Positions 7,554-60,674 of a stretch of DNA of 64,000 nt are shown piece after piece (the stretch's first letter is position 1; every line of letters starts with the position of its first letter). Below the pieces are notes generated by a model. It was not told where the DNA came from and did no database searches. It worked only from the letters and a program-made list of their open reading frames with translations. Position numbers and translations under genes: made by a program. This DNA comes from Sulfuritalea hydrogenivorans sk43H (lineage in GTDB: Bacteria > Pseudomonadota > Gammaproteobacteria > Burkholderiales > Rhodocyclaceae), in assembly GCF_000828635.1 (NCBI RefSeq), contig NZ_AP012547.1, forward strand, positions 62,001 through 126,000, read 5' to 3'.

Positions 7554-7577
7554 GTCGCCGTACCGCCAGCGCCGACT
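7554..7577 (-). repeat. 24-base dispersed repeat, gltI-gltJ gap
   Basis: It matches the AGTCGGCGCTGGCGATACGG-CGAA consensus at 22 of 24 positions by eye, on the minus strand. It begins one base after the gltI stop codon and fills most of the gap to gltJ. Confidence 0.8.
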
Positions 7578-7578
7578 T

Positions 7579-8481: not shown

Positions 8482-8496
8482 GGCGGTCTCCTTGGC

Positions 8497-10332
8497 TCAG
8501 GCTTCGATCATATTCTGTTGCTGCTGCAAAGCCCACATCTGGGCATACAGGCCGTTCTGTTCGAGCAGGGCGCGATGCGCGCCACGCTCGACGATATGCC
8601 CGGCGTCGAGCACCAGGATCTCGTCGGCGTTCATCACTGTAGACAAGCGGTGGGCAATGATCAATGTGGTGCGGCCGATGGCAGCCTGTTCCAGTTCGGC
8701 CTGGATGGCCTTTTCGGTCTTGGAGTCGAGCGCCGAGGTGGCCTCGTCAAAAATCAGGATCGGCGGATTCTTCAAGAGCGCGCGGGCAATCGCCACGCGC
8801 TGCTTCTCGCCGCCGGAAAGCTTGAGGCCGCGCTCGCCGACGCGCGTGTCGTACCCGTCAGGCAGGCGTTCGATGAAGTCGTGGATGTGCGCCGCCTTTG
8901 CCGCGGCGATCACTTCCTCGCGCGGCGCCGTCGGACGGCCGTACTGGATGTTGTAGAAAATCGTGTCGTTGAACAGCACCGTATCCTGCGGCACGATGCC
9001 GATCGCGGCGCGCACCGAGGCCTGCTGCAGGGCGCGCAGGTCCGAGCCGTTGATCTTCACCGAACCGGTCGTCGTGTCGTAGAAGCGGAACAGGAGCCGC
9101 GCCAGGGTCGACTTGCCCGAGCCGCTGTGGCCGACCACGGCCACCGTCTCGCCAGCGCCGACTTTGAAATCGACATCGAACAAAATCTGCCGGTTGGCCT
9201 CGTAGGCGAAGCCGACGTTCTCGAATTCGATCTCGCAGGGGCCCGACTCGCCAGAGGCAAACAACGGCCGCGCATCCGGCGCATCCTGGATTTCGCGGTT
9301 CTTGTCGAGCAGCGAGAACATGCGCTCGATGTCGGTCAGCGACTGGCGAATCTCGCGATACAGCACGCCGAGGTGGTTGAGCGGCATGTAGAGCTGGATC
9401 AGGAAGGCATTCACCAGCACGATGTCGCCGACCGTCATGTTGCCGGAGGCAACGCCGACCGCGGCGCGCCACATCATCAGCGTCACGCCGGCGGCGATGA
9501 TCAGCGACTGGCCGAGGTTGAGCCACGACAGCGAAACCTGGCTCCTGATCTGCGCGGTTTCCCACTTCTGCATCTGCTCGTCGTAGCGGTCGTGTTCCCA
9601 GCGCTCGTTGTTGAAGTACTTCACCGTCTCGAAGTTGATCAGGCTGTCCACCGCGCGTACGTTGGCCGCCGAATCCAGCTCGTTCACTTCGCGCCGCAGC
9701 ACGGTGCGCCAGTTGGTGACGACGATGGTGAAGATGACGTAGATCGTCAGCGTGGCGCCGGTGATCAGCGTGAAGTCCCAGGCGTAGCGCGCGGCCAGTA
9801 TCCCGATCACCAGCGCGATCTCGACCAGCGTCGGCAGGATCGAATACAGCGTGTAACTGATCAAGGAGCCGATCGAGCGCGTGCCGCGTTCGATGTCGCG
9901 CGTCAGGCCGCCGGTCTGGCGGTCGAGGTGGAAGCGCAGCGAGAGCGCATGCAGGTGCTCGAACACCTGCAGCGTGATGGTGCGCACCGCGCGTTGCGTC
10001 ACGCGGGCGAAGAAGATTTCGCGCAGCTCGGTGAACAGCACGGTGGAAAAGCGCAGCGCGCCGTAGGCCGCCAGCAGGCCCAGCGGCACCAGCAGCACGG
10101 CCTGCTCCAGCTTGTTGGCGCCCGGCAGGGTGAAGGTGTCGATGATGTCCTTGAACACCATCGGCACCGCGACGTTGGTCAGCTTCGCCAGCAGCAGGCA
10201 GCAGAGCGCGAAGACGACGCGGCCCTTCCATGCCCACAGGTAGGGCAGCAGGGTCTTGATGGTTTGCCAGTCGTGGCGCGTTTCGGGGATCGGGCCCGGC
10301 AGGGCCATGGTGGGGGGGGTGCGACGCATCAT
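8497..10332 (-). CDS. Atm1-type ABC exporter, fused membrane and ATPase domains
   Basis: A 611-residue half-transporter. The first part holds about six membrane helices with the Atm1-like segments RFHLDRQTGGLTRDIERGT and NFETVKYFNNE. The ATPase follows: Walker A GHSGSGKST, Q-loop GIVPQDTVLFNDT, signature LSGGEKQRVAIARALL, Walker B ILIFDEATSALD and H-loop AHRLST. Bacterial Atm1 homologues export glutathione-linked metal or sulfur species; the substrate here is not shown. Two starts are possible: the ATG-ATG at 10332/10329, or the ATG at 10308. A run of eight C (G on the plus strand) lies between them, so the longer form would be exposed to slippage. Confidence 0.88.
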   Translation of the reverse strand: MMRRTPPTMALPGPIPETRHDWQTIKTLLPYLWAWKGRVVFALCCLLLAKLTNVAVPMVFKDIIDTFTLPGANKLEQAVLLVPLGLLAAYGALRFSTVLFTELREIFFARVTQRAVRTITLQVFEHLHALSLRFHLDRQTGGLTRDIERGTRSIGSLISYTLYSILPTLVEIALVIGILAARYAWDFTLITGATLTIYVIFTIVVTNWRTVLRREVNELDSAANVRAVDSLINFETVKYFNNERWEHDRYDEQMQKWETAQIRSQVSLSWLNLGQSLIIAAGVTLMMWRAAVGVASGNMTVGDIVLVNAFLIQLYMPLNHLGVLYREIRQSLTDIERMFSLLDKNREIQDAPDARPLFASGESGPCEIEFENVGFAYEANRQILFDVDFKVGAGETVAVVGHSGSGKSTLARLLFRFYDTTTGSVKINGSDLRALQQASVRAAIGIVPQDTVLFNDTIFYNIQYGRPTAPREEVIAAAKAAHIHDFIERLPDGYDTRVGERGLKLSGGEKQRVAIARALLKNPPILIFDEATSALDSKTEKAIQAELEQAAIGRTTLIIAHRLSTVMNADEILVLDAGHIVERGAHRALLEQNGLYAQMWALQQQQNMIEA

Positions 10333-10365
10333 GGTTTAGATTTTAACAACTTGGTGGCGTGGCTT

Positions 10366-10389
10366 ACCGCCGTGGTGTCAGCGCCGACT
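10366..10389 (-). repeat. 24-base dispersed repeat, diverged, outer end of the left long repeat
   Basis: About 18 of 24 matches to the consensus, minus strand. The terminal nine bases (GCGCCGACT on the plus strand) are intact and run directly into the long inverted repeat. Confidence 0.55.
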
Positions 10390-10719
10390 TTCTCACTTCG
10401 CCTCCACGCCCGCGCCGGGTCTCGCCCCGGCGGGCGACCTACTTTCTTGCTCGTGCAAGCAAGTAGGCAAAGAAGCACGCCCCGCCTCCCCGGCCTTTTG
10501 GCGGAGGGCTCGCCAGAGTCTCGCCCGTTCGCGCGGCGCAAGGCCAATCAATTGGCCTTGCGAAACCCCGCGCTCACCCCTCGCTGCGGAAGGCCCGCCG
10601 GGCCGGTCGCTAAACTAGCCGGCCAAAAGCGGCCAGCGTCGGACAACGCGACCGGACTACTCCCGGCGAACCTCCCTCGCTCGGCGGGTCAGAGGGGAAG
10701 GCAAACCGTCGCGCGTGGA
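10366..10719 (-). repeat. Long inverted repeat, left copy (about 350 bases)
   Basis: This stretch is repeated in inverted orientation at 11774-12054. Shared blocks include CGCGCCGGGTCTCGCCCCGG, GGGCGACCTACTTTCTTG, AGTAGGCAAAGAAG, CGGTCGCTAAACTAGCCGGC and CTCGGCGGGTCAGAGGGGAA. Near 10496-10578 the left copy has about 80 bases where the right has about 11; that insertion holds a perfect hairpin, arms 10537-10547 and 10552-10562 with loop TCAA. I see no protein-coding support; open frames across it are typical spurious GC-rich translations. Its outer end is a 24-base dispersed repeat. Confidence 0.9.
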
Positions 10720-11773: not shown

Positions 11774-12054
11774 CCACACGCGACGCCTTGCCTTCCCCTC
11801 TGACCCGCCGAGCGAGGAAGGTTCGTCGGGGGAAGTCCGGTCGCGTTGTCCGACGCCGGCCGTTTTTGGCCGGCTAGTTTAGCGACCGGCCCGGCGGGCC
11901 TTCCGCAGCGAGGGCAGCCCGCAGGGCCGGGGAGGCGGGGAGCGCTTCTTTGCCTACTTTCTTGCGCGAACAAGAAAGTAGGTCGCCCGCCGGGGCGAGA
12001 CCCGGCGCGGGCGCGGAAGCGAAGAAAGAAAGTCGGCGCTGGCGATACGGCGAA
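11774..12054 (+). repeat. Long inverted repeat, right copy (about 280 bases)
   Basis: Reverse complement of the left copy at 10366-10719 with scattered substitutions and without most of the left copy's internal 80-base insertion. It ends at 12031-12054 in a perfect copy of the 24-base dispersed repeat. The region 11701-11773 before it holds only the tail after the effector gene and nothing I recognise. Confidence 0.9.
12031..12054 (+). repeat. 24-base dispersed repeat, perfect copy at the right module end
   Basis: 24 of 24 matches to the consensus. It forms the outer end of the right long inverted repeat, which links the dispersed short repeat to a larger element. Confidence 0.9.
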
Positions 12055-12072
12055 ATCCACATCCATCGCCCC

Positions 12073-12134: not shown

Positions 12135-12137
12135 GGA

Positions 12138-14429: not shown

Positions 14430-14453
14430 ATCGCCGTAGCGCCGGCGCCGACT
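14430..14453 (-). repeat. 24-base dispersed repeat, intergenic
   Basis: 21 of 24 matches to the consensus, minus strand, in the divergent gap between the AI-2E transporter gene and the tetR operon. It lies about 30 bases upstream of the tetR -35 element. Confidence 0.75.
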
Positions 14454-14556: not shown

Positions 14557-15228
14557 ATGGAACCCGATACCCGCTCCCGCATCCTCGACGCCGCCGAAAA
14601 CCTGTTCGTCGAACACGGCCTCGACGCGACCACGCTGCGCATGATCACCGCCGAGGCGAAGGCCAATCTGGCCGCGGTGAACTACCACTTCGGCTCGAAG
14701 GAGGCGCTGATCGAGGCGGTGTTCCGCCGCCGCCTGAGCTGGCTCAACGAGCAGCGCATTGCCGTGCTCGACGCGCTGGAAGCCGAGGCCGGGGGCGCGC
14801 CGCTGAAGCCGCGGCAGATCGTCGAATCCTACTTCGGCGTGACGATCCGCATGGCGGCATCGAGCCCCGGCGGCAAGACCTTCATGCGCCTGCTGGGCCG
14901 CACCTATACCGAGCCCTCGGAATTCGTGCGCAACTTCCTGGCCGAGGAGCATGCGGAACTGATCGCCCGCTACAAGGCGGCCTTCTTCAAGGCCCTGCCC
15001 GACGTGCCGCAGGAAGAATTCCTCTGGCGCTTCCATTTCATGATGGGCGCCCTGGCCTACGCGGTGTCCGGCGCGGACGCGCTGCGCATTCTCGGCCCCA
15101 TCGACGATTCCGATCCCGAGGCGCTTTACGCCCGGCTGATGAGCTTCCTGATCGGTGGCCTGCGCGCGCCGTTGCCCGAAATTCGCACCAAGTCCGCCCG
15201 CAAATCGGGCACGAAGAAGGCGGCGTGA
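14557..15228 (+). CDS. TetR/AcrR family regulator
   Basis: A 223-residue regulator. The N-terminal helix-turn-helix (residues about 8-52) reads ILDAAENLFVEHGLDATTLR then AEAKANLAAVNYHFGSKEAL, a standard TetR head. The C-terminal part, with EFLWRFHFMMGALAYAVSG, resembles TetR proteins placed with beta-oxidation genes. It is the first gene of an operon, two bases before the thiolase gene, and sits behind the palindrome AAACGATCGTTT, so autorepression released by an acyl-CoA-type ligand is the likely logic. Confidence 0.85.
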   Translation: MEPDTRSRILDAAENLFVEHGLDATTLRMITAEAKANLAAVNYHFGSKEALIEAVFRRRLSWLNEQRIAVLDALEAEAGGAPLKPRQIVESYFGVTIRMAASSPGGKTFMRLLGRTYTEPSEFVRNFLAEEHAELIARYKAAFFKALPDVPQEEFLWRFHFMMGALAYAVSGADALRILGPIDDSDPEALYARLMSFLIGGLRAPLPEIRTKSARKSGTKKAA

Positions 15229-16532: not shown

Positions 16533-16543
16533 CCCGGAACGCC

Positions 16544-17437
16544 ATGCGCACACCGGTTCGACTTTCGTATCGCGCCAAGCCGTCCGTCATCGGCTTCATG
16601 ACGAATATCGCGCGTCCGGCGCCGCGGGCGCCGCGTGACGGCCCCCTGCCCGACATGCAGGCGCACTGGCGCGGCCAGCGGATTTCACCACGCGACCTCG
16701 CCGGTTTCTTCGAGCTGTCCGGCCTGCCGGCAAGCGAAACCCTGCCGATCCTGTATCCGCACACCATCAGCTTTCCCATGCTGATGGCGGTGCTGAGCCA
16801 TCCGCGCTTTCCCGTTCCGATCTGGAACGTGCTCCAGGTGCGCAACCGTTTGATGCAGCACGCGCCGATCGCACCGGATGCGGCGCTGGATTTCAGCGTG
16901 CGCACGGGCGAGCGGCGCGTGCTGGAAAAGGGCCTCGAGATGGACCTGCTGGTCAGTGCCGAAGCCGGCGGACGGGTGGTGTGGGAGGCCGTCGATACCT
17001 TCTATGCGCGCGGCCGCTTCGGCGTCGCACAGGCGGCGGTTTGCCCCAGCCCGAACGTGGCGGGGACGACGGTCGCCGAGTGGCGCCTGCCCGCGCATGG
17101 CCGCTGGCGCTACGGGCGGCTTTCCGGCGACCTCAATCCCCTGCACATGAGCGACGGCTACGCGCGCCGCTTTGGCTACTCCGGCGCCTTCACCCATCCG
17201 CAGCGGATCATCGGCCAGTGCCTCGGCCATCTCGGTGCCATTGGTGCATTGGGGCATGTGCCGATGCAACTCGAAACCTGGATCAAGGGCCCGGTGTTCT
17301 ACGGTGCCCGGCTGAGCCTGCGTGCCGAAGCGCGGGCGGCGGAACAGCTTTTTGCATTGCACGTGGATGACGACGCGCGGCCGGCCATCGTCGGCCGCTT
17401 CGTCACCCCAAACATCGATCGGGAAACTTCGACATGA
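16544..17437 (+). CDS. MaoC-like acyl dehydratase (hot-dog fold)
   Basis: A 297-residue protein. The C-terminal half has the hydratase-2 motif GRLSGDLNPLHMSDGYARRF followed by GYSGAFTHPQRIIGQCL, with the Asp and His used to hydrate 2-enoyl-CoA. The N-terminal half is probably a degenerate second hot-dog fold. It lies between thiolase and fadJ, and the next gene starts inside its stop (ATGA). A later start at 16598 is possible. It may hydrate R-specific enoyl-CoA or handle branched intermediates; the substrate is not known. Confidence 0.82.
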   Translation: MRTPVRLSYRAKPSVIGFMTNIARPAPRAPRDGPLPDMQAHWRGQRISPRDLAGFFELSGLPASETLPILYPHTISFPMLMAVLSHPRFPVPIWNVLQVRNRLMQHAPIAPDAALDFSVRTGERRVLEKGLEMDLLVSAEAGGRVVWEAVDTFYARGRFGVAQAAVCPSPNVAGTTVAEWRLPAHGRWRYGRLSGDLNPLHMSDGYARRFGYSGAFTHPQRIIGQCLGHLGAIGALGHVPMQLETWIKGPVFYGARLSLRAEARAAEQLFALHVDDDARPAIVGRFVTPNIDRETST

Positions 17438-19395
17438 GCAACTTCAAGCACTGGCGCCTCGAACGTGAAGCCGACGATTCAGGCGTAGCCTGGGCCATCC
17501 TCGACACCGCCGATTCCTCGACCAATACGCTGGGCGCCGACGTCATGGCCGAACTGGGCCTGATCCTCGACGAATGCGCGAAGCATCCGCCCAAGGGGCT
17601 GATCTTCACGTCGGCCAAGGAGGCCGGCTTCATCGCCGGCGCCAACATCGAGGAATTCGTTGCGTCCGATACCCCGGAGAAGGCGCTCGCCCTGGTCAAG
17701 CGCGGCTGGGACTTGTACAACCGACTCGCCGCCGTGAGCTATCCGACGCTGGCGCTGGTGCGCGGCCACTGCATGGGCGGCGGCACCGAACTGGCGCTGG
17801 CCTGCCGCTACCGCATCGCGGTCGATGAACCCGGCACCAGGTTCGCGCTGCCGGAAGTCATGCTCGGCATCGTGCCGGGCTGGGGCGGCATGTTGCGCCT
17901 GCCGCAAATCGTCGGCCCGGCGGCGGCCTTCGACATGATGCTGACCGGCAAGAACATTGATGCGAAGCGGGCGAAGAAAATGGGCCTGGCCGACGAATGC
18001 TTGCCGCCGCGCGTCATGGAAAATGCCGCGCGCATGCTGGTGCTGTCGGGCAAGCCGATGCGCCAGTCGCAACTGCTCTTGATGCAGAGACTGATGAACG
18101 GTCCGCTGAAAGGTTTCGTCGCCAGCGGCGCGAAGAAGCAGGTGGCGAAGCGCGCGCGACGGGAACACTACCCCGCGCCCTACGCGATCATCGACCAGTG
18201 GCAGAACCACGGCGGCAACACGCTGGCCGTGCCGGCCGGCGCGCCGATCTCGCTCGATGCGCTGGTGACGCACCCGACCACGCGCAACCTGATCCGCGTG
18301 TTCTTTTTGCAGGACCGGCTCAAGGGCTTCGGCAAGCTCAGTGGCCAAACCGGGAAGGATTTCGCTCCGCGCCATGTGCATGTGGTCGGCGCCGGCGTCA
18401 TGGGCGGCGACATCGCGGCATGGTGCGCGCTGCGCGGCATGACGGTGACGCTGCAGGATCAGTCCGTGGAGCGCATCGCCCCGGCCGTCGGCCGCGCCGC
18501 GAAATTCTTCGAGAAGAAGCTGCGCGACAGGAAGCTGGCGCGCTTCGCGCTCGATCGCCTGATCGCCGATCCGCGGGGCGATGGCGTGCGCCAGGCCGAT
18601 GTCATCATCGAGGCGATTTTCGAGAACCTCGAGGCCAAGCAGGCGCTGTTCGCCGACATCGAGGCGCGCGCCAAACCGGAGGCACTGCTGGCCTCCAACA
18701 CCTCGTCGCTGAAGCTCGCCGACATCGCTGCGAAGTTCAAGGATCCTTCGCGCCTGGTCGGCATCCACTTCTTCAATCCGGTGGCGATGATGCCGCTGGT
18801 GGAAGTGGTGGCCGGCGCCGGCACCGCACCCGAAGCGGCGCAGAAGGCCGCCGCCTTCGTGCGCAAGATCGACAAGCTGCCGCTGCCGGTGAAGGACGCG
18901 CCGGGCTTTTTGGTCAATGCCGTGCTCGCACCCTATATGAACGAAGCCATGAAGTGCGTGGACGAAGGCATCGCACCCGAAACCATCGACGCGGCCATGC
19001 TGGCCTTCGGCATGCCGATGGGACCGATCGAACTGGCCGACACGGTCGGCCTCGACGTTGCCGTCGCGGCGGGCCGGCAGCTGGTCGGTGACGCGAATCC
19101 GCCGCAAAAGCTGGTGGAACTGGTGGAGGGCAAGAAGCTCGGCAAGAAGTCCGGCCAAGGCTTCTACACCTGGATCGATGGCAAGGCGCAGAAATCGAAA
19201 GTCGGCGCTGGCGATACGGCGAATCAGGCGCTGGCGCAGCGCCTGATCACGCCCCTGCTTGACGCCACGCAAAGGCTGGTGAAGGACGGCGTGGTCGCCG
19301 ATGCCGAACTCGCCGATGCCGGCGTGATCTTCGGCACCGGCTTTGCGCCCTATACGGGCGGCCCGATGAACTACCTGCAGACGCACCGCGCTTGA
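17434..19395 (+). CDS. fadJ: Fused enoyl-CoA hydratase / 3-hydroxyacyl-CoA dehydrogenase, FadJ-like
   Basis: A 653-residue bifunctional beta-oxidation enzyme. The hydratase half (1-200) shows FIAGANIEEF and CMGGGTELALACRYRI for the oxyanion hole and LPEVMLGIVPGWGG with the catalytic Glu. The dehydrogenase half starts at about 314 with the NAD-binding VVGAGVMGGDIAAW, then SNTSSLKL and GIHFFNPVAMMPLVEVV with the catalytic His. Near the end, residues 590-597 (VGAGDTAN) come from a perfect copy of the 24-base repeat, between the two C-terminal helical domains where an insertion may be tolerated. It forms a pathway with the thiolase upstream. Confidence 0.88.
   Translation: MSNFKHWRLEREADDSGVAWAILDTADSSTNTLGADVMAELGLILDECAKHPPKGLIFTSAKEAGFIAGANIEEFVASDTPEKALALVKRGWDLYNRLAAVSYPTLALVRGHCMGGGTELALACRYRIAVDEPGTRFALPEVMLGIVPGWGGMLRLPQIVGPAAAFDMMLTGKNIDAKRAKKMGLADECLPPRVMENAARMLVLSGKPMRQSQLLLMQRLMNGPLKGFVASGAKKQVAKRARREHYPAPYAIIDQWQNHGGNTLAVPAGAPISLDALVTHPTTRNLIRVFFLQDRLKGFGKLSGQTGKDFAPRHVHVVGAGVMGGDIAAWCALRGMTVTLQDQSVERIAPAVGRAAKFFEKKLRDRKLARFALDRLIADPRGDGVRQADVIIEAIFENLEAKQALFADIEARAKPEALLASNTSSLKLADIAAKFKDPSRLVGIHFFNPVAMMPLVEVVAGAGTAPEAAQKAAAFVRKIDKLPLPVKDAPGFLVNAVLAPYMNEAMKCVDEGIAPETIDAAMLAFGMPMGPIELADTVGLDVAVAAGRQLVGDANPPQKLVELVEGKKLGKKSGQGFYTWIDGKAQKSKVGAGDTANQALAQRLITPLLDATQRLVKDGVVADAELADAGVIFGTGFAPYTGGPMNYLQTHRA
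19200..19223 (+). repeat. 24-base dispersed repeat inside the fadJ-like gene
   Basis: 24 of 24 matches, in sense orientation and in frame, giving VGAGDTAN at residues 590-597 of the encoded enzyme. Confidence 0.9.
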
Positions 19396-23036: not shown

Positions 23037-23070
23037 GTCGCTCTCCCTCTCGTGAGGATTGATGCCGCCG

Positions 23071-24249
<1,179 letters not shown>

Positions 24250-25553: not shown

Positions 25554-26099
25554 ATGGCAAATCCCCGCTATTCGCTTGCCGCACTGCTTGCCAGTTCGAC
25601 GCTGGTGCTCGGCGCCTGCGGCGTCCTGCCCTACGGCACGCAGTCGCCGGCGCCGGTGGTTTCGTCGCGAGCCGGCGCAGAGGCGCAGGGAGTCGGCGCT
25701 GGCGACACGGCGAATATCAACGACAAGGCCAACGACGTCGTGCTGTTCGCGCTGGGGCTGATCGAAACCGGCTACCGTTTCGGCGGCAAGAACCCGGAAG
25801 CCGGGCTGGATTGCAGCGGCATGGTCAGCTACGTCTACCAGAAGTCGGCCGACATGCGCTTGGCCGGCTCGGCAGCCGATCTCGCCCGACAGGGCAAGCC
25901 GGTACCGCCGGATCGACTGCGTCCCGGCGACCTGGTCTTCTTCAACACGCGCAACAAGGCCTATTCGCACGTCGGCATCTACATCGGCGACGACCGCTTC
26001 GTGCATGCGCCGAACAGCCGCGGCAAGGTGCGCACCGAGAGCCTGAGGAACGGCTGGTTTGCGGCGCGCTTTGAGGAAGGCCGCACCTATTTCGACTGA
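25554..26099 (+). CDS. NlpC/P60 family peptidoglycan hydrolase, lipoprotein
   Basis: A 181-residue protein. The N-terminus carries a lipobox (LASSTLVLGACG), so it is probably lipid-anchored. The NlpC/P60 domain starts at about residue 60 with YRFGGKNPEAGLDCSGMVSY (catalytic Cys) and continues with the His in KAYSHVGIYIG and DRFVHAPNS. It cuts peptide bonds in the cell wall. Residues 47-54 (VGAGDTAN) between the lipid anchor and the catalytic domain come from the 24-base repeat and probably act as a linker. Confidence 0.9.
   Translation: MANPRYSLAALLASSTLVLGACGVLPYGTQSPAPVVSSRAGAEAQGVGAGDTANINDKANDVVLFALGLIETGYRFGGKNPEAGLDCSGMVSYVYQKSADMRLAGSAADLARQGKPVPPDRLRPGDLVFFNTRNKAYSHVGIYIGDDRFVHAPNSRGKVRTESLRNGWFAARFEEGRTYFD
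25691..25714 (+). repeat. 24-base dispersed repeat inside the NlpC/P60 gene
   Basis: 23 of 24 matches, sense and in frame, encoding VGAGDTAN in the linker before the catalytic domain. Confidence 0.9.
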
Positions 26100-28975: not shown

Positions 28976-29650
28976 TCACGTCGGCCTCAGCACCGATTCA
29001 TGGTCGAAGTCGCCGGTCTTCCCTTCGCTGACGGCGACCAGCTGGGGGTACATGCGCACCATGTCGGCCACCAGTTCGTCGTAGGGCAGGTCGTCGAACT
29101 CGCCGCGCTGCTTGACGTATTCCATGTGGCGCTGGTTGGCCGAGTTGTAGGGGTGCATCTGCGAGTCGTGCTCGCCGTCGAAATCCAGTGGCAGCACGCC
29201 GAAACGCCGGCACATTTCGATGTTGAAGGCCGGCGTTGCCTTGACCCATTTGCCGTCGAGCCACAGGCTGACATAGCCGTGCCAGGCGTAGATGTCGGTG
29301 CCGACCAGGCGCGCCAGCTTTTCGGTGGAGAGGTGGTTCTTCACGTCGGCAAAGCCGGGCCGCGCCGGGATGCCGACCGCGCGCAGGCAGGCGGCATACG
29401 CCAGTGCCTTGTTCACGCAATAGCCGACGCCCTTTTCCAGCGTGGTACTGGCGCGCAGCGCTTCCCGTTGCATGCTGGCGCTGTAGGGGTCGTAGCGGAT
29501 GCCGTCGCGCACCGCGTAGTAAAGGCACAAGGCCTGCTCTTTCGGCGTGTCACCAGCGCCGACTGTTGCGGCAACGAACTCGCGGATCGCGGGATGCTCG
29601 TGATCGATGAATTCGGTGGCAGCCAGCCAGGCGGGATTGATCGCCGTCAT
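28976..29650 (-). CDS. Transglutaminase-like cysteine protease family protein
   Basis: A 224-residue protein of the bacterial transglutaminase-like superfamily. The catalytic Cys is in GVGYCVNKALAYAACLRAVG and the His in YAWHGYVSLWLDGKW, followed by KATPAFN, the form seen in this branch. Members are peptidases or amidases; the substrate is unknown. The ATG shares one base with the TGA of the upstream acyl-CoA dehydrogenase (TGATG), so translation is coupled. Residues 30-36 (VGAGDTP) come from a 24-base repeat copy, before the catalytic Cys. Confidence 0.82.
   Translation of the reverse strand: MTAINPAWLAATEFIDHEHPAIREFVAATVGAGDTPKEQALCLYYAVRDGIRYDPYSASMQREALRASTTLEKGVGYCVNKALAYAACLRAVGIPARPGFADVKNHLSTEKLARLVGTDIYAWHGYVSLWLDGKWVKATPAFNIEMCRRFGVLPLDFDGEHDSQMHPYNSANQRHMEYVKQRGEFDDLPYDELVADMVRMYPQLVAVSEGKTGDFDHESVLRPT
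29541..29564 (-). repeat. 24-base dispersed repeat inside the transglutaminase-like gene
   Basis: 21 of 24 matches on the minus strand, sense for the host gene and in the usual frame, encoding VGAGDTP near residue 30. Confidence 0.75.
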
Positions 29651-33769: not shown

Positions 33770-35932
33770 ATGCTGAATTACACCGTAGATGCAGAAGGCA
33801 TCGCCACCGTCGAATTCGATTACCCGGAAAAGTCGCAGAACATCCTCAACGCCAAGTCGATGGGCGCCTATGCCGACGCCATGCAGAAGGCGCTGGCCGA
33901 TCCGGCCGTGAAGGGTATCGTCGTCGCCTCGGCGAAGAAGGACTTCATCGCCGGCGGCGATCTTGCCGAACTCGGTGCGGCGACCGACGCCGCGGCCTTC
34001 CATGCCAGCATCAGCGCCTGGCACAAGCTGATGCGCGCCATCGAACTCGGCGGCAAGCCCGTCGCGGCGGCGCTGAACGGCACCACGCTGGGCGGCGGCA
34101 TGGAAGTCGCGCTCGGCTGCCATTACCGCGTCGCGGCCGACAATCCGAAGGCGCGTTTCGGCTTCCCCGAAGTCACGCTGGGCCTCTTGCCCGGCGCCGG
34201 CGGCACGCAGCGCCTGCCGCGCCTGGCCGGCATGATGGCGGCCGCGCCCCTGCTCATGGAAGGCAAGCGCATCAAGGCGGCCGAGGCGCAGAAGATCGGC
34301 ATGATCCACGCCGTGGTGACAGTCGGCGCTGAGCGCACGGCGGCACGGCAGTGGGTGGCGGACACCCTGGCGGCCGGCACCAAGCCGCTGCAGCCCTGGG
34401 ACATGAAGGGTGCCAAGATTCCCGGCGGCGGACCGAATACGCCCAACGGCATGCAGATGCTGATGGCGGCCAACGCCATGCTGCGCGAGAAGACCTGCGA
34501 CAACTATCCGGCGCCCAAGCACATTCTTTCCTGCGTCTATGAGGGACTGTCGACCAACATCGACACCGGCCTCGCCATCGAGGCGCGCTACTTCACCAAC
34601 CTGGTGATGTCGCCGGTCTCGAAGAACATGATCCGCAGCCTGTTCTTCGGCATGCAGGAAGCCAACAAGCTGGCTTCGCGGCCGGCCGGTGTGCCGACCC
34701 AAAAGTATTCGAAGATCGGCATGCTCGGCGCCGGCATGATGGGTGCCGGCATCGCGATGTCGACCGCGACGGCCGGCATGGCCATCGTGCTGCTCGACAC
34801 CACGCAGGAGGCGGCAGAGAAGGGCAAGGACTACGCGCGCAAGCAGTGGAGCAAGCAGGTGGCGAAGGGCCGCATGACGGCCGACGCCATGGAGGCGCTG
34901 CTGGCCCGCATCCATCCCACCGCAGACTACGCCGATCTCAAGAGCTGCGAACTGGTCATCGAAGCCGTGTTCGAGAAGCGCGAGATCAAGGCCGACGTGA
35001 CGAAGAAGGCCGAGGCCGTGCTTTTGGCAGACCCGGCGCCGGATGCGATCTTCGCCTCCAACACCTCGACCCTGCCGATCACCGGCCTGGCCGAAGCCAG
35101 CGCACGCCCGGCCAACTTCATCGGCCTGCATTTCTTCTCGCCCGCCGAAAAGATGCCGCTGGTGGAAATCATCGTCGGCAAGGCCACCAGCGACGCGACC
35201 CTGGCGCGCTCGATGGACTACGTGCGCGCCATCGGCAAGACGCCGATCGTGGTCAATGATTCGCGCGGCTTCTACACCAGCCGCGTGTTCGGCACCTATG
35301 TTTCGGAAGGCATGGCACTGCTCGAGGAAGGCGTGCCGCCGGCGCTGATCGACAAGGCCGGCCTGATCGCCGGCATGCCGGTCGGCCCGCTGGCGCTGGC
35401 CGACGAGGTCTCGATCGAACTGGTGCACAAGATCGCGCAGCAGACGCGAGCCGACCTCGGCAGCGCCTATGTCGAACGCGCCGCCGATCGCGTCGCGGCG
35501 AAGATGGTGGCCGACCTCGGTCGGCTCGGCCGCAAATCGGGCGCCGGCTTCTACGACTACCCGGCCGACGGGCCGAAGCATCTGTGGTCCGGACTGGCTC
35601 AGCACTTCCCTGTAAGAGTCGGCGCCGACGGCACGGCGGCATTGACGCTGGAACAAATCGTCGAGCGCCTGATCCTGGTGCAGTCGGTGGAAACCGTGCG
35701 CTGCCTGGAAGAAAAGGTGCTACGCGCGCCGATCGACGCCGACGTTGGCGCGATTCTCGGCTGGGGCTACCCGCCCTTCCGCGGCGGTCCGATCGGCTGG
35801 CTGCACACGCTCGGCTCGGCAAAATCCGTGGCCGCGCTGGACCGCTTGGCGGAACAAAACGGCCCGCGTTTCACGCCGCCGAAATTGTTGCGCGACATGG
35901 CCGCAAGGGGTGAAAACTTCTACCCGGCTTGA
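33770..35932 (+). CDS. fadB: Fused enoyl-CoA hydratase / 3-hydroxyacyl-CoA dehydrogenase, FadB-like
   Basis: A 720-residue multifunctional enzyme. Hydratase half: IAGGDLAELGAATD, LNGTTLGGGMEVALGCHYRV and FPEVTLGLLPGAGGTQRLP with the catalytic Glu. Dehydrogenase half from about residue 320: KIGMLGAGMMGAGIAM (NAD site), ASNTSTLPITGLA and GLHFFSPAEKMPLVEIIVG (His). Two stretches, VGAERTA (185-191) and VGADGTA (617-623), come from weak repeat-like sequences. It and the thiolase upstream are the second beta-oxidation set in this window. Confidence 0.9.
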   Translation: MLNYTVDAEGIATVEFDYPEKSQNILNAKSMGAYADAMQKALADPAVKGIVVASAKKDFIAGGDLAELGAATDAAAFHASISAWHKLMRAIELGGKPVAAALNGTTLGGGMEVALGCHYRVAADNPKARFGFPEVTLGLLPGAGGTQRLPRLAGMMAAAPLLMEGKRIKAAEAQKIGMIHAVVTVGAERTAARQWVADTLAAGTKPLQPWDMKGAKIPGGGPNTPNGMQMLMAANAMLREKTCDNYPAPKHILSCVYEGLSTNIDTGLAIEARYFTNLVMSPVSKNMIRSLFFGMQEANKLASRPAGVPTQKYSKIGMLGAGMMGAGIAMSTATAGMAIVLLDTTQEAAEKGKDYARKQWSKQVAKGRMTADAMEALLARIHPTADYADLKSCELVIEAVFEKREIKADVTKKAEAVLLADPAPDAIFASNTSTLPITGLAEASARPANFIGLHFFSPAEKMPLVEIIVGKATSDATLARSMDYVRAIGKTPIVVNDSRGFYTSRVFGTYVSEGMALLEEGVPPALIDKAGLIAGMPVGPLALADEVSIELVHKIAQQTRADLGSAYVERAADRVAAKMVADLGRLGRKSGAGFYDYPADGPKHLWSGLAQHFPVRVGADGTAALTLEQIVERLILVQSVETVRCLEEKVLRAPIDADVGAILGWGYPPFRGGPIGWLHTLGSAKSVAALDRLAEQNGPRFTPPKLLRDMAARGENFYPA
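34321..34344 (+). repeat. 24-base repeat-like sequence in the fadB-like gene (weak)
   Basis: About 17 of 24 matches, with the first 11 perfect, sense and in the usual frame (VGAERTA). Confidence 0.35.
35617..35640 (+). repeat. 24-base repeat-like sequence in the fadB-like gene (weak)
   Basis: About 18 of 24 matches, sense and in the usual frame (VGADGTA), between the dehydrogenase core and the second C-terminal domain, the same relative place as the perfect copy in the fadJ-like gene. Confidence 0.45.
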
Positions 35933-41457: not shown

Positions 41458-42636
41458 ATGAAGGGCTACACCAAACTGGCAGCGGCACTGTTCGCGGCCG
41501 CGGGAGTCGGCGCTGGCGCCACGGCGATGGCCGCCGAGCAGATGGGCGTCAGCAAGAACGAGATCGTCATCGGTACCATCCAGGATTTGTCCGGCCCGCT
41601 GGCCGGCTTCGGCAAGGCGCTGCGTTTCGGCATGCAGATGCGGGTCGACGAGGTCAATGATCAGGGCGGCATCAACGGCCGCAAGCTCAAGTTCATCGCC
41701 GAGGATTCCGGCTACGACCCCAAGAAAGGCCTGCTCGCGGCACAGAAAATGGTGCAGCAGGACAAGATTTTCGCCATGGTCGGCACCATCGGCACGGCGG
41801 TCAATGTGGCGACCTTCCCGACCCTGTTCGACAAGGGCGTGATGAACCTCTTCCCGCTGACGGCGGCACGCGAAATGTACGAGCCGCTGCACAAGCTGAA
41901 GTTCTCCTTCGCTGCTCCCTACTACAACCAGATCCGTACCGGCGTGAAGTGGATGGTCAAGGAGCGCGGCGCGAAGAAGTTCTGCGTCATCTATCAGGAC
42001 GACGACTTCGGCACCGAAGTGCTGAAAGGCGCCGAGGACGGCCTCAAGGACATCAACATGACCTTCGCCGAGAAGACCTCCTTCAAGCGCGGCGCCACCG
42101 ATTTCTCGGCCCAGGTATCGAAGATGAAGGCGGCGGATTGCGATACCGTCGTGCTCGGCACCATCATCCGCGAAACCATCGGCACCATCGGCACGGCGAA
42201 GAAGATGGGCTGGAACCCGAACTTCATCGGCTCCTCGGCGGCCTATACCGACCTGATCCACAAGCTCGGCGGCAAGGCGATGGACGGCCTGTATGCCCTG
42301 CACCAGGTCGCGGTGCCCTATGCCGACGACTCGTCGAAGAACGTACGTGACTGGTTTGCCAGCTACAAGGCCAAGTTCAACGAAGATCCCGGCCTGTTCG
42401 CTGCCTATGGTTACGTGGCGATGGACATGTTCGTGCAGACGGCGAAGAAGACCGGCGCCAACCTGACCACCGACAACTTCATCAAGACGCTGGAGAGCAC
42501 CACCTTCTCGCGCGACATGTTCGGCAGCCCGGAATACAAGTTCACGCCCAAGCAGCATCTGGGCAACGACAAGTCCAAGGTCGGCCAGATCCAGAACGGT
42601 CGCTGGGTGGCGGTGACCGATTACATGGCCCAGTAA
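41458..42636 (+). CDS. livK: Periplasmic substrate-binding protein of a LivK-type ABC transporter
   Basis: A 392-residue binding protein (Peripla_BP_6 type) with signal peptide and mature start EQMGVSKNEIVIGTIQDLSG; GRKLKFIAEDSGYDPKKGLL and GTIGTAVNVATFPTLFDKGV are family blocks. It delivers the substrate to LivHMGF. The start at 41458 follows AGAGGAGAG; the in-frame GTG/ATG upstream is leader. Residues 17-23 (VGAGATA) lie in the signal peptide and come from a 24-base repeat copy, just before the expected cleavage site. A good terminator follows the gene. Confidence 0.9.
   Translation: MKGYTKLAAALFAAAGVGAGATAMAAEQMGVSKNEIVIGTIQDLSGPLAGFGKALRFGMQMRVDEVNDQGGINGRKLKFIAEDSGYDPKKGLLAAQKMVQQDKIFAMVGTIGTAVNVATFPTLFDKGVMNLFPLTAAREMYEPLHKLKFSFAAPYYNQIRTGVKWMVKERGAKKFCVIYQDDDFGTEVLKGAEDGLKDINMTFAEKTSFKRGATDFSAQVSKMKAADCDTVVLGTIIRETIGTIGTAKKMGWNPNFIGSSAAYTDLIHKLGGKAMDGLYALHQVAVPYADDSSKNVRDWFASYKAKFNEDPGLFAAYGYVAMDMFVQTAKKTGANLTTDNFIKTLESTTFSRDMFGSPEYKFTPKQHLGNDKSKVGQIQNGRWVAVTDYMAQ
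41505..41528 (+). repeat. 24-base dispersed repeat inside the livK signal peptide
   Basis: 21 of 24 matches, sense and in the usual frame (VGAGATA). Its insertion lengthens the hydrophobic part or cleavage region of the signal peptide. Confidence 0.75.
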
Positions 42637-44110: not shown

Positions 44111-45628
44111 TCAAGTAGCCAGCAGGCAGCTTCGTTCATCGGCGTCTGGCGGCTCGAACCACGTCAGCTGCTTTTCGAGCACGGCGACGGTGGCTTCCGA
44201 GGCGTCGCCGCTGCGTGCGCCGAGGCGCCGGCGCAGTTCCTCCGGCGGCGCTGCGGTGGCGAGGATGCCGAAGACCGCGCCGAGTTCGGCCGCCAATGCA
44301 CGGAACTCCTCGCGTTCGGCGCGCTTCAGAAAGGCCGCATCGACGATCACCGGCCAGCCGGCGGCCAGCAGGTCCCGCGCCAATGCGCGCAGCCGCGCAT
44401 AGGTGCGGGTCGTTGCCTCGATCGTGTAGATTCCGCCGTCCTGCGCCGAATGGCTGCTTTCCCGTGGCGCCAGGCCGAACAGGCGCTTGCGCTCGACGTC
44501 CGAGCGCAGCCGGACGATGCTGCCGGCACCCGCCACGGCCGGGTCCAGCAGGCGCGCCGAACTGACCGTGGTCTTGCCCGAACCCGACAGCCCGCAGGTG
44601 ATGGTGAGAGTCGGCGCTGGCGGGACGGCGATTTGCTGTGCCAGTTGCAGGTAGGTGCGCGCCGAATCGAAGCCGGCCGGTTTCTGCTCCGCGTCTTCCT
44701 GTCGGGCACGCAGTGCTGCAATCTTGGCGCGCACCACGGCGCGGTATACGGCGTAAAAGCGCAGCACGGCGAGCGCCTGGAAATCGCCGCCGGTTTCCAG
44801 CCAGGCGTTCAGCAGCCACGCGGCCAGCCCCGGCTGGCGGTGGTCGAGCAGGTCGATCCAGACGAAGGCGATCTCGCTGGCTGTGTCGTTCCAGCGGAAA
44901 TCCTCGTTGAACTCGATGCAGTCGAAGGGCGTCACGCGGCCATCGATCAGCACCAGGTTTCCCAGATGCAGGTCGCCGTGGCCTTCGCGGACAAAGCCGT
45001 CCGCCTTGCGCGCAGCGAAGTCGCCGGCTCGCCGCGTGAATTCGTCGTCGGTCCAGCGCGCCAGCTGCTCCACCTGCGGCTGGTCGGCTTGCGGCAGGAG
45101 CTGGCGCAGTTCGACGAAGTTTTCCCGCGCCGCCGCCAGGACCTGTTCCGGCGCACCGAAGCGCGTGCCGGGCGCCGCCACGGCCGCCGCCTGCTGAAAC
45201 GCGCACAGCGTGGCGGCGAGCTGGGAAAGCTGGGCCGGTTGCAGTTCGCCGCGCTTCGCGACCCGATCGAGCCGCCCGCTTTCGTCGAAGCGGCGCATGC
45301 GTACCGCCCACTCGATGGCTGGCATCGCGCCGAGCCGGGGTTGTTCGGGCGTCCCGCCAATCGGCACCACGTCGAGATACAAGCCCGCGGCGAAGCGGTG
45401 GTTGAGCACCAGTTCCGCGCGACAAAATGCCTCGCGTCGCGCCAGCGTGCCGTAATCGAGAAAGGGCAGCGTGATCGGCTTCTTGATCTTGTAGGCGAAA
45501 TCGCCCGCCAGCAGCAGCCACGAGGCATGCGTCTGGATCAGATCGACGCGCCCGGCCGGATGCGGATAAGCGTGCGGGTCGAGCAGGGCGGCGATCAGGG
45601 GCGGCAGAGGGTTTCCCATGCGATTCAT
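44111..45628 (-). CDS. Aminoglycoside phosphotransferase-like domain fused to a P-loop kinase
   Basis: A 505-residue protein. The N-terminal part has an APH-type kinase core: AGDFAYKIKKP and the catalytic loop EGHGDLHLGNLV, with FDCIEF as the metal site. From about residue 355 a second domain starts with GLSGSGKTT (Walker A) and ends with WPVIVDAAFLKRAEREEF, as in zeta-toxin or AAA_33 kinases. This fused family is widespread but its substrate is not known. ATG at 45628 is chosen; 45619 is also possible. The segment AVPPAPTL just before the P-loop comes from a 24-base repeat lying antisense. Confidence 0.82.
   Translation of the reverse strand: MNRMGNPLPPLIAALLDPHAYPHPAGRVDLIQTHASWLLLAGDFAYKIKKPITLPFLDYGTLARREAFCRAELVLNHRFAAGLYLDVVPIGGTPEQPRLGAMPAIEWAVRMRRFDESGRLDRVAKRGELQPAQLSQLAATLCAFQQAAAVAAPGTRFGAPEQVLAAARENFVELRQLLPQADQPQVEQLARWTDDEFTRRAGDFAARKADGFVREGHGDLHLGNLVLIDGRVTPFDCIEFNEDFRWNDTASEIAFVWIDLLDHRQPGLAAWLLNAWLETGGDFQALAVLRFYAVYRAVVRAKIAALRARQEDAEQKPAGFDSARTYLQLAQQIAVPPAPTLTITCGLSGSGKTTVSSARLLDPAVAGAGSIVRLRSDVERKRLFGLAPRESSHSAQDGGIYTIEATTRTYARLRALARDLLAAGWPVIVDAAFLKRAEREEFRALAAELGAVFGILATAAPPEELRRRLGARSGDASEATVAVLEKQLTWFEPPDADERSCLLAT
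44609..44632 (+). repeat. 24-base dispersed repeat, antisense inside the kinase-fusion gene
   Basis: 21 of 24 matches on the plus strand, opposite to the host gene, where it encodes AVPPAPTL in the linker between the two kinase domains. It is the only clear intragenic copy that is not sense. Confidence 0.75.
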
Positions 45629-49369: not shown

Positions 49370-49393
49370 GCCGCCGTACCGCCAGCGCCGACT
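49370..49393 (-). repeat. 24-base dispersed repeat, intergenic
   Basis: 21 of 24 matches, minus strand, between the rubrerythrin and Fe-S oxidoreductase genes. Its left end joins an imperfect hairpin (ACGGCGGC...GCCGCCGT). Confidence 0.75.
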
Positions 49394-57375: not shown

Positions 57376-57966
57376 TCAGAACGACGAGCCGGCTTGCTTG
57401 AGGAACTCGATTTCCTCGGGTGTCGATGCCCGGCCAAGGATGGCATTGCGGTGGGGAAAGCGGCCGAAGCGGGCGATCACCTCGCGATGCCGGATCGCAT
57501 AATCGTAGGCGCTGTCGAAAGCCGCGGTTTTCATTTCGCGGCGCAGGCCGGCGAAGAGGGCCACGGCGCGCTCCTGATCTAGCAGCGACTCGCCGTGTTC
57601 GAAGGGCAGGTAGGCGAACCAGCGCTGAAAGGGCGACAGGTTCTTGTCGCGGCCGGCGCCGACCAGGGTTTCCGCCAATCCCAGAGCCTGCGCGTCGCCG
57701 GTGAAGGCGCGCGGCGTGTCGCGGAAAATGTTGCGCGTGAATTGGTCGAGCAAAAGGATGCGCGCCAGCAGCGCTTCGTCAGGCCCTGCGTCGAGGGTAG
57801 TGTTCAGCGCCGCTTCGACAGCCGCGCCGAAACGGTCGCGGATCGTCGCATCGAACGCGGCATCCTTGCGGAACCATTCGGGGCGGTAGGTGCCGTGGCC
57901 GGGGTGGTCCGGCAGCAGGAACCAGAAATCGAGAACGGCGAGGGCTTCAGGCGCCACGCCGGTCAT
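57376..57966 (-). CDS. DUF924 family protein
   Basis: A 196-residue DUF924 protein: VLDFWFLLPDHPGHGTYRPE, then ILLLDQFTRNIFRDTPRAFT and LSPFQRWFAYLPFEHGESLL. The fold is TPR-like and function unknown. Its ATG overlaps the end of topB by four bases (minus strand), so it may be read through from topB. Confidence 0.9.
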   Translation of the reverse strand: MTGVAPEALAVLDFWFLLPDHPGHGTYRPEWFRKDAAFDATIRDRFGAAVEAALNTTLDAGPDEALLARILLLDQFTRNIFRDTPRAFTGDAQALGLAETLVGAGRDKNLSPFQRWFAYLPFEHGESLLDQERAVALFAGLRREMKTAAFDSAYDYAIRHREVIARFGRFPHRNAILGRASTPEEIEFLKQAGSSF

Positions 57967-60674
57967 ACGGCTTTCTTGGCAGCGGGCTTCTTCGTTGCGG
58001 GCTTGGCGGCCGCCTTCTTCGCAGCGGGTTTTTTGGCCGCAGGTTTCTTTACTGCAGCCTTCTTAGCTACGGCCGCTTCGCTTAACGCCGATGAATCCGG
58101 CGTTAGCCTTCTCTGAAACTTCGTTTTCGCCGTGTCGTCAGCGCCGACTGTCGGCGCAGCCTTGGCCTTCGCCGGTTTCGCCTCGTCGGCCTTGGCGGCC
58201 GGCTTGGCCCCGGCTTTCGGCGCCCTCGGTTCGAACTCGAAGCCCACCTTGCCGGTCTTCGCATCGCGCACCAGATAGGCGGAAAACTTGCGTCGCGTCT
58301 TGTTCGAGATGAAGCCCTTGAGCAGGTCGGTCTTGCCGGTGGCCAGCAGCTTCTGCATGTCGGCGCGTGCCACCTCTTGCTGCAGGATTATCTTGCCGGA
58401 GCGGAAATCGCAGGTCTTTCCCGCGCCCACGGCCTTTTCGCAGACATAGGCCATGCCGTGCTCGAAGACGCGCGCGCCGCATTTCGGGCAGGCGCCGAGC
58501 GATTCCTGCGTCGAGAAATCGACTTCTTCGCCATCGGCGTCGGCGTCCGACTGGCCGAAATCGAATTCCGGTGTGTGGTCTTCCTTGAGCTTGATCATCG
58601 CCGCGAAAGGACGCCCCATCTTGCTGCGGAAGCCCTGCAGGGGGCCGATCACGCGCTTCGTGAGCAGCTCGTCCATTTCTTCCGGCTCCCATTGCCGGCT
58701 GGCGACGATCTTCCACAGGCTGTAGTCGCAGGACTTGCACTGGAACTTCTTGTAGTTTTCCTGGATCACGCCGCCGCAGCGCGGGCAGGGCGTCTTCAGC
58801 GTGGAGAAGGCGGCTTCGGGCAGCTCGCCGGTCTTGATGCGCTCGACCATCTCGCGCGTCTTGTCCACGATGTGGCTCATGAACTCGTCGCGCGCCAGCC
58901 GTCCGTGTTCCATTTCCTTGAGCTTGTATTCCCATTCGCCGGTCAGTTCGGGCGAGCGGATTTCATCGACGCCGAGGTTTTCCAGCGCAAACAGCAGCGA
59001 GAAGGCCTTGGCCGTCGGTTGCAGTTCGCGGCCGTTGCGATGCAGGTATTCCTCGGCCAGCAGGCCTTCGATGGTCGCGGCGCGCGTGGCCGGCGTGCCG
59101 AGGCCGCGTTCGGACATCGCCTCGCGCAACTCCTCGTCCTCGATCAGCTTGCCGGCGCCTTCCATGGCGGTCAGCAGCGTGGCTTCCGTGAAGCGCGGCG
59201 GCGGCTGGGTGGCCTTGGTCTTGACCTCGACATCCTTGGCCCAGACGCGTTCGTTCTTTTCCAGCGGCGGCAGGGTCAGGTTCTCGCCGGCTTCCTCGCG
59301 GGTTTCCTGCGATTCCTTGCCATACACGGCGAGCCAGCCCGGCGTCACCAGCACCTTGCCTTCGGTCTTGAAGGCTTCCTTCTCGATGCGGGTGATGCGC
59401 GTGGTGATGTTGTACTCGGCCGACGGATAGAAGATGGCGAGGAAGCGCTTGGTGACGAGGTCGTAAATCTTCTGTTCCGGCTCGGACAGGTTCTTCGGCG
59501 CGGCACCGGTGGGGATGATGGCGAAGTGGTCCGAGACCTTGGCATTGTTGAAAATGCGCTTGTTCGGATGCACCCAGCCGTTCTTGATGATGGCGCCGGC
59601 AAAGGTGGCGTAGGGCGTGCCGGCCATCGATGCCAGCGTTTCCTTGACCGTGCCGATGTAATCCTCGGGCAGGTGGCGGCTGTCGGTTCGCGGGTAGGTC
59701 AGCGCCTTGTGCTTTTCGTACAGCGCCTGGGCAATGCCCAGCGTGTTCTTGGCGCTGAAGCCGAAGCGGCCGTTGGCCTCGCGCTGCAGCGAGGTGAGGT
59801 CGTAGAGCATCGGGCAGGCTTCGGTCTTGGGCTTGCTGTCCTCATCCACCGTGCCGTGCTGGCCGAGGCATTTCTTGCGCAGCGCGTCGGCCTTGGCCTT
59901 GTCCCACAGGCGCTCGGCGCGGGCGTGCTCATCGTCGGCCTTCTTGAACTTCTCGTCGAACCAGCGGCCCTTGTAGGTTCCGGCGACGCACTGAAATTCG
60001 CCTTCGACTTCCCAGTAATCGCGCGAAACAAAGTTGCGAATGCGGCTTTCGCGTTCGACCATGATCGCCAGCGTCGGCGTCTGCACGCGGCCCACCGGCG
60101 TCTTGTAGAAGCCGCCTTCCTTCGAATTGAAGGCGGTCATGGCGCGCGTGCCGTTGATGCCGATCAGCCAGTCGGCTTCCGAGCGGCAGCGCGCGGCATC
60201 GGCCAGCGGCAGCATTTCCTCGTCGGTGCGCAAGTGGGCGAAGCCGTCGCGGATCGCGGTGGTGGTCATCGATTGCAGCCACAGGCGGCGCACGGGTTTT
60301 TGCTTGGCGCCGAGGGCGTGCTGCGCCACGTAGCGGAAAATCAGTTCGCCCTCGCGTCCCGCGTCGCAGGCATTGACCAGGCCGGTGACGTCCTTGCGCT
60401 TGATCAGGCGCGTCAAGAGACGCAGGCGTTCCTGCGTCCGCTCGATGGGATTCAGCGCGAAATGCGGCGGAATCATCGGCAGGTGGGTGAAGCTCCACTT
60501 GCCGCGCTTGACGTCGTATTCCTCCGGCACCGTCAGTTCCAGCAGGTGGCCGATGGCGGAGGACAACACGTAGTCGTCGCTCTCGAAGTAGTCGCCGGTC
60601 TTGGTAAAGCCGCCCAGCGCCTTTGCGATGTCATTGGCGACGGAAGGTTTCTCGGCGATGATCAACTGCTTCAT
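57963..60674 (-). CDS. topB: DNA topoisomerase III with a Lys/Ala-rich tail
   Basis: A 903-residue type IA topoisomerase. The TOPRIM domain opens it (KQLIIAEKPSVANDIAKALG) and the catalytic Tyr is in ALTYPRTDSRHLPEDY. Two zinc-binding segments follow (CPRCGGVIQENYKKFQCKSC and CPKCGARVFEHG). After residue about 800 comes a tail rich in Lys, Ala and Pro with KKPAAKK repeats, probably DNA-binding and disordered. In this tail VGADDTA (843-849) comes from a 24-base repeat copy. It relaxes negative supercoils and resolves recombination or replication intermediates. Start at 60674. Confidence 0.92.
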   Translation of the reverse strand: MKQLIIAEKPSVANDIAKALGGFTKTGDYFESDDYVLSSAIGHLLELTVPEEYDVKRGKWSFTHLPMIPPHFALNPIERTQERLRLLTRLIKRKDVTGLVNACDAGREGELIFRYVAQHALGAKQKPVRRLWLQSMTTTAIRDGFAHLRTDEEMLPLADAARCRSEADWLIGINGTRAMTAFNSKEGGFYKTPVGRVQTPTLAIMVERESRIRNFVSRDYWEVEGEFQCVAGTYKGRWFDEKFKKADDEHARAERLWDKAKADALRKKCLGQHGTVDEDSKPKTEACPMLYDLTSLQREANGRFGFSAKNTLGIAQALYEKHKALTYPRTDSRHLPEDYIGTVKETLASMAGTPYATFAGAIIKNGWVHPNKRIFNNAKVSDHFAIIPTGAAPKNLSEPEQKIYDLVTKRFLAIFYPSAEYNITTRITRIEKEAFKTEGKVLVTPGWLAVYGKESQETREEAGENLTLPPLEKNERVWAKDVEVKTKATQPPPRFTEATLLTAMEGAGKLIEDEELREAMSERGLGTPATRAATIEGLLAEEYLHRNGRELQPTAKAFSLLFALENLGVDEIRSPELTGEWEYKLKEMEHGRLARDEFMSHIVDKTREMVERIKTGELPEAAFSTLKTPCPRCGGVIQENYKKFQCKSCDYSLWKIVASRQWEPEEMDELLTKRVIGPLQGFRSKMGRPFAAMIKLKEDHTPEFDFGQSDADADGEEVDFSTQESLGACPKCGARVFEHGMAYVCEKAVGAGKTCDFRSGKIILQQEVARADMQKLLATGKTDLLKGFISNKTRRKFSAYLVRDAKTGKVGFEFEPRAPKAGAKPAAKADEAKPAKAKAAPTVGADDTAKTKFQRRLTPDSSALSEAAVAKKAAVKKPAAKKPAAKKAAAKPATKKPAAKKAV
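58126..58149 (-). repeat. 24-base dispersed repeat in the topB tail
   Basis: 22 of 24 matches, minus strand, sense for topB and in the usual frame (VGADDTA). A hairpin AACGCC...GGCGTT lies about 20 bases further on (58084-58104). Confidence 0.8.

Follow-up and report, generated by a model that had tools for sequence, protein, structure and literature searches.

What is the 24-base word that recurs on both strands, between and inside genes, in a stretch of the chromosome of Sulfuritalea hydrogenivorans sk43H? The stretch (the window) is 64,000 nucleotides long and corresponds to positions 62,001 to 126,000 of contig NZ_AP012547.1. The original prediction, made from the letters of the window, listed 11 good and four weaker copies and offered three roles, namely an uptake-signal-like word, the end of a mobile repeat or a chromosome-organising site. 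The scattered word is considered here a candidate DNA uptake sequence, that is, a tag of self DNA comparable to the DNA uptake sequence (DUS) of Neisseriaceae and the uptake signal sequence (USS) of Pasteurellaceae, with a probability of about 0.8. Most likely it is the uptake sequence of a third family, independent in sequence of the two known ones.

The 24-base consensus AGTCGGCGCTGGCGATACGGCGAA was matched on both strands of the window. At ≤ 3 mismatches 11 matches were obtained, with 0 in 100 dinucleotide shuffles, and these are the 11 copies listed earlier with at least 21 of 24 matches, all at the starts given for them (Table 1). Five of the 11 are intergenic and six lie in predicted genes, about half in gaps as claimed, and the strand count given for all 15 listed copies (8 plus, 7 minus) was also correct. 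Three of the four weaker copies stand at 6 mismatches; the one at 34321 has 7 and is not above background by mismatch count, since the reversed word, used as control, has 19 matches at ≤ 7. The whole genome (3,802,648 bp, one contig) contains 419 matches at ≤ 3 mismatches (214 forward, 205 reverse) and 0 matches to the reversed word, a count far above this control.

The anatomy of the word was determined in 37 stretches of 20 kb across the chromosome plus the window (804 kb, 21% of the genome), with gene calls from our own codon-usage script. At ≤ 6 mismatches this sample holds 164 matches vs 0 for the reversed word, and at ≤ 7 mismatches 209 vs 19, so that the word family is clearly delimited at its weak end. 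From a profile of 145 copies (≤ 5 mismatches) a consensus of ~26 bp was obtained, RARAGTCGGCGCYGGCGNNACGGCGA. Its first block, AGTCGGCGC, is strong; a stretch follows in which two positions are almost free, and ACGGCG forms the second block. The first 9-12 bases had been described as best conserved, which holds, with the second block (positions 17-22) nearly as strong. Conservation starts three bases before the 24-mer (RAR) and drops to background 1-2 bases outside the ~26 bp word on both sides, with no conserved flanks. At ≤ 4 mismatches 125 copies were found (about one per 6 kb, extrapolated to ~590 genome-wide). Predicted genes fully enclose 80 of them, 44 are intergenic and 1 overlaps a gene boundary; non-coding bases make up ~13%. 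Convergent gaps are richest per base (17 copies in 13.3 kb); tandem gaps hold 16 in 50.3 kb and divergent gaps 9 in 26.7 kb, and 2 of the 44 gap copies were not assignable to a type. Copies in tandem gaps show no clear preference of orientation (9 same, 7 opposite). The 80 in-gene copies are 52 sense and 28 antisense and use all six frames. Their commonest readings, VGAGDTA (41 of 80) and FAVSPAPT (19 of 80), are small-residue and proline-alanine stretches, which linkers should tolerate.

Inside genes the constraint acts on the DNA word, and the peptide is not the target. The peptide VGA[GDS].TA was searched in the predicted proteins (233,061 residues), which avoids a choice of copies by their DNA. 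It was found 31 times, where composition predicts 0.18; 200 scrambled versions of the peptide were found 0.33 times on average and 6 times at most. The codons of these 31 peptides match the DNA word: all 31 use GTC (genome-wide share among valine codons 41%) and ACG (34%), 30 use GCG (36%), and 26 use GCT, a rare codon with 5.1% of alanine. This choice therefore reflects a nucleotide-level constraint, and the in-gene copies are not ordinary codons kept in orthologues, one of the two outcomes that the original prediction had named against itself; the other, a genome count at background level, did not arise either.

Within the genus the word occurs in three spellings, counted over 31 genomes. 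The common spelling AGTCGGCGCYGGYGNNACGG is present in all 31, from 10 copies (G172) to 454 (G001), with 435 in strain sk43H (G000). Of the spelling AGTAGACGCYGGYGNNACGG, G069 has 125 copies and G167 a single one, and the remaining 29 genomes have none; G069 is mixed, with 200 copies of the common spelling beside it. The third, AGTTGGCGCYGGYGNNACGG, has 285 copies in G163, 233 in G153 and 264 in G171 (0-9 in the other 28 genomes), and the common spelling has only 33, 38 and 43 copies in these three. The corresponding cores are AGTCGGCGC in most genomes, AGTTGGCGC in three, and AGTAGACGC mixed with AGTCGGCGC in one. Eight AGTAGACGC sites of G069 were alignable to strain sk43H, where seven read AGTCGGCGC and one has no word. 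Among 21 AGTTG-type sites tried, 8 have alignable relatives; two of these are ABC-transporter codons (site 9140, see below), and the other six (four loci) read AGTCGGCGC in at least one relative. At site 19200, where 18 genomes were aligned, the word is uninterrupted in 12 (three spellings), interrupted by another insert in 4 and absent in 2 (L128 and L129), with AGTAGACGC in G069. By these alignments, genomes have switched spelling at the same sites, and a spelling change at hundreds of fixed places implies a trans-acting, sequence-specific reader. Small samples from other genera suggest further spellings (AGTCGGTGC in G008, AGTCGACGC in G045).

One additional match with 4 mismatches, at 9140-9163 on the minus strand, lies in an ABC-transporter gene and is kept by relatives as codons. 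It was set aside as not clearly a copy and is still within the counts of 125 and 80. At these codons two AGTTGGCGC genomes (L132, L210) read AGTTGGCGCTGG, which is nearer their own dialect.

Orthologous sites were compared in syntenic regions of same-genus genomes (80 query sites, 595 site-by-genome comparisons, which are redundant in that one orthologous locus is counted from several genomes). The word is present in 501 of the 595, with unchanged length in 379. It is absent in 94, a class that takes in alignment artefacts and interrupted copies: 22 have the same length, 34 are shorter, 30 are longer and 8 are clean losses, of which 7 come from one locus and 1 is an alignment artefact. Three distinct loci gain or lose the word by substitution at constant length, namely L154:2012 (absent in G168), L161:8480 (present in G117, absent in five aligned genomes) and L164:1318/L154:7634 (degenerate copy in most genomes, absent in G069). 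Change in place is clearly seen, and at some sites the word may have been gained by a small insertion.

Among the three roles offered, the uptake-signal-like word fits most of this evidence. A surface DNA receptor would read the word during natural transformation, and DNA bearing it would be taken up preferentially and then recombined in. Alleles matching the receptor would spread, and the word would pile up where proteins tolerate it, in gaps, linkers and gene ends. If the preference of the receptor shifted, sites would be rewritten in place to the new dialect. Dialects at fixed places would be explained in this way, since biased uptake with recombination is the known process that produces them. 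The bacterium would accordingly be competent, and its uptake machinery would be the reader.

The end of a mobile repeat, the second role offered, fits poorly. A short mobile repeat (repetitive extragenic palindrome (REP), miniature inverted-repeat transposable element (MITE) or Rickettsia-palindromic-element type) inserted at hundreds of places, genes included, is rather improbable. The word is dispersed in hundreds of copies, as are MITE and REP repeats, the latter also in bacterial interspersed mosaic elements (BIME). Locus L157:17553 and its orthologues show clean presence or absence with a length change, several linker sites (e.g. 19200 and 25691) differ in length among relatives, and hairpin elements of another family do insert inside the word. 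However, conservation ends sharply at ~26 bp without flanking repeats, no hairpin or terminal inverted repeats are seen in the 145-copy profile, and neither of the single copies tested for folding (12031 and 19200) surpassed shuffled sequence. Unlike REP/BIME and MITE repeats, the word is not limited to gaps and occupies six frames. Unchanged length is the rule in the redundant comparisons above, the three loci named there change by substitution, and the word is respelled in place. Clean insertion polymorphism is not found at many sites; the length-variable linkers are not accounted for by this.

In the third role, an intracellular reader would recognise the word as a site that organises the chromosome or binds a nucleoid protein. 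This role has a similarly low probability, and respelling at hundreds of sites would not be expected of it. Hundreds of copies with a fairly even spread would suit it (per 20 kb of the 804 kb sample the variance/mean ratio is 0.71, p 0.10, not significant), and a reader of changing specificity would yield dialects too. On the other side, strand polarity by the sign of the GC skew is not significant (22+/29- vs 44+/30-, Fisher p 0.10), and the word is patchy across genera of one family; hundreds of rewrites would here need selection at each site, whereas uptake bias with recombination would drive them. A chromosome-wide recognition system of undescribed kind, outside DNA uptake, is unlikely; its changing specificity would rewrite hundreds of sites, and G069 would have been caught with two spellings. 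Chi words are short and strand-polar. A Chi-like recombination or repair word is very improbable, for although the word here is abundant, dispersed and within genes, it is ~26 bp long and, unlike Chi and the FtsK-orienting polar sequences (KOPS), has no significant replication-strand polarity. A feature at the protein or RNA level, such as a repeated peptide or a terminator, can practically be dismissed. The share of VGAGDTA-like readings among in-gene copies would favour it, as would the single inverted pair in 804 kb (L155), which lies between convergent genes and folds as a strong, perfect hairpin. Against this, six frames and both strands are used, the codons are fixed to the DNA word and the two single copies folded are unremarkable. 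The window is without a match in Rfam.

A candidate for the reading protein lies in a minor-pilin operon of strain sk43H, which contains a PF16732 (ComP_DUS) pilin, GspH/FimT, one unassigned gene, PilW, a PilX-like protein that scores below the family cut-off, and PilY1. The first gene of the operon (G000:C1 ~3,023,878) matches PF16732 with 43.9 bits. Compared with solved structures at an E-value limit of 0.1, its product matched 20 distinct sequences that are named as pilins, pilin-like subunits or uncharacterised proteins; ComP is not among these names. ComEC is present in the genome. Neither ComEC, found in 31 of 31 genomes tested, nor GspH/FimT, found in 30 of 31, is a discriminating gene, and a PF07963 pilin, found in 18 of 18 genomes among the matches listed, allows no discrimination either.

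Several observations weigh against an uptake sequence, beside the length changes at L157:17553 and at the linker sites. ComEC also occurs in motif-free genomes, so that the uptake machinery does not discriminate carriers. The PF16732 pilin scores higher in G020 and G062, which have 0 copies (48.5 and 46.6 bits), than in strain sk43H, and reaches 51.1 bits in the nearly motif-free G172. The pilins of G161 and G069 are 83% identical although G069 has the second spelling, while those of G000 and G161 are 44% identical despite one common spelling. As a demonstrated receptor the PF16732 pilin was rejected, since it is also present in motif-free genomes and does not track the dialect. G172 belongs to the same genus and has only 10 copies, yet ComEC and pilins are present. 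Two differences from the known systems also count here: the word is longer and rarer (one per 6 kb) than the DUS of Neisseria, for which one per 400-1100 bp is given in the available part of PMC7371117, and inverted pairs are rare, unlike those of the Pasteurellaceae USS. Neither of the other two spellings was found in G172, which may have lost the system or use an unrecognised spelling.

In the USS of Pasteurellaceae an extended motif surrounds a strong core, and the candidate uptake sequence described here has the same layout. Also, one orientation is commoner within genes (52 sense vs 28 antisense), as reported for the USS in the accessible text of PMC2346458. The class of bacteria is different, and so is the core, which in Pasteurellaceae is AAGTGCGGT according to the part available of PMC12616744, where eUSS is mentioned as well. 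An analysis of coevolution for PpdA is also described there. With the DUS of Neisseriaceae the word shares many genic and intergenic copies, several spellings in relatives and one genome with two of them; the consulted portion of PMC3630211 describes eight DUS dialects, with two in the genome of Simonsiella muelleri. Unlike the ~12 bp DUS, the word is ~26 bp in two blocks and unrelated in sequence, and its ComP-type pilin is only a candidate reader. No core shared with the neisserial DUS or the Pasteurellaceae USS was seen when the sequences quoted in the accessible parts of PMC12616744 and PMC2346458, which differ from AGTCGGCGC, were compared by eye. No earlier report of an uptake sequence in Rhodocyclaceae was found in the open literature among the best-matching titles, and AGTCGGCGC as a text string gave unrelated topics among the matches listed.

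A census of the family covered 150 genomes. At least one match occurs in 47 of them, and 13, from 6 of 68 genera, have at least 40 copies; most others have 0-2. An exact scan of a named genome collection matched 86 stretches. The labels among the 80 of these listed are Sulfuritalea, Rugosibacter, Sulfurisoma and Rhodocyclaceae/Rhodocyclales, with a few less specific or other ones (betaproteobacterium, Burkholderiaceae and one Gammaproteobacteria). A genome named Sulfuritalea hydrogenivorans, a species isolated from a lake, is among those with an exact copy; Sulfuritalea is placed in Sterolibacteriaceae in the NCBI taxonomy. In a viral collection 36 stretches have one word match each.

At ≤ 4 mismatches the word is missing from three of the 37 sampled stretches of 20 kb. 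According to the part of their genes that was scanned, L175 (G000:C1:1900001-1920000) is a low-GC conjugative element with the F-type transfer genes TraN and TraU and with HipA, L177 carries an IS66 transposase and phosphonate transport, and L168 is a metabolic region. Copies per stretch rise with GC (rho 0.46, p 0.004), to which the base composition of the GC-rich word may contribute. The copy-free stretches point to depletion in newly acquired DNA, though not decisively. A low DUS density is reported for Neisseria islands in the available part of PMC7371117.

Table 1. Copies of the word in the window, with positions counted from its first base.
Feature	Positions	Strand	Basis
Copy, 2 mismatches, intergenic, one base past a stop codon	7554..7577	-	consensus match and gene call
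Copy, exact consensus, intergenic	12031..12054	+	consensus match and gene call
Copy, 3 mismatches, intergenic between divergent genes	14430..14453	-	consensus match and gene call
Copy, exact consensus, in fused enoyl-CoA hydratase/3-hydroxyacyl-CoA dehydrogenase gene (17434-19395), reads KVGAGDTAN	19200..19223	+	
Copy, 1 mismatch, in NlpC/P60 gene before the domain, reads VGAGDTAN	25691..25714	+	
Copy, 3 mismatches, sense in predicted gene; G069 has AGTAGACGC at the same site	29541..29564	-	
Copy, 3 mismatches, near start of periplasmic binding protein gene (Peripla_BP_6)	41505..41528	+	
Copy, 3 mismatches, antisense to minus-strand predicted gene	44609..44632	+	
Copy, 3 mismatches, intergenic	49370..49393	-	
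Copy, 1 mismatch, intergenic, immediately 3' of a TAG stop codon	53869..53892	+	
Copy, 2 mismatches, sense, near 3' end of predicted gene	58126..58149	-	
Degenerate copy, 6 mismatches; reversed-word control 0 at this level	10366..10389	-	
Degenerate copy, 6 mismatches; reversed-word control 0 at this level	23064..23087	-	
Degenerate copy, 6 mismatches; reversed-word control 0 at this level	35617..35640	+	
Possible degenerate copy with an exact match over the first nine bases, 7 mismatches in all	34321..34344	+	

Other repeats were observed in and near the word. In 4 of 6 distinct regex matches (L127, L135, L163 and, in strain sk43H, L140:15200 on the minus strand) the word is interrupted at one and the same position by a hairpin element of ~27 bp (CCCCGAAGGNAGTCCCC...), and related or other hairpin-like inserts break the word in L134, L125 and L131; REP-like repeats may use the word as an insertion site. 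Positions 10366-10430 (minus) and 11980-12054 (plus) of the window have ~45 further upstream bases in common (ggtcgcccgccggggcgagacccggcgcgggcg...), apparently a separate, longer repeat. L154 contains a repeat of ~200-300 bp in opposite orientations (16219-16535 and 17840-18053), of which a search of ten genomes of the genus gave many relatives, and L197 two further short dispersed repeats (14640-14749 and 15594-15645) with many copies in the three genomes searched. In the product of the gene at 3456-5255 (+) of the window, a thioredoxin-like domain comes after a caspase-like one (Peptidase_C14).

According to a 2025 paper (PMC12616744, in the part available), self-specific DNA uptake is known from Neisseriaceae and Pasteurellaceae only. 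If the word is an uptake sequence, it would be a third, independent case, in environmental betaproteobacteria. Three spellings in one genus, with one genome holding two, would let the origin and change of specificity be tested among close relatives. Such a case would further hint at restricted gene exchange between these relatives and would help to find new DNA receptors.

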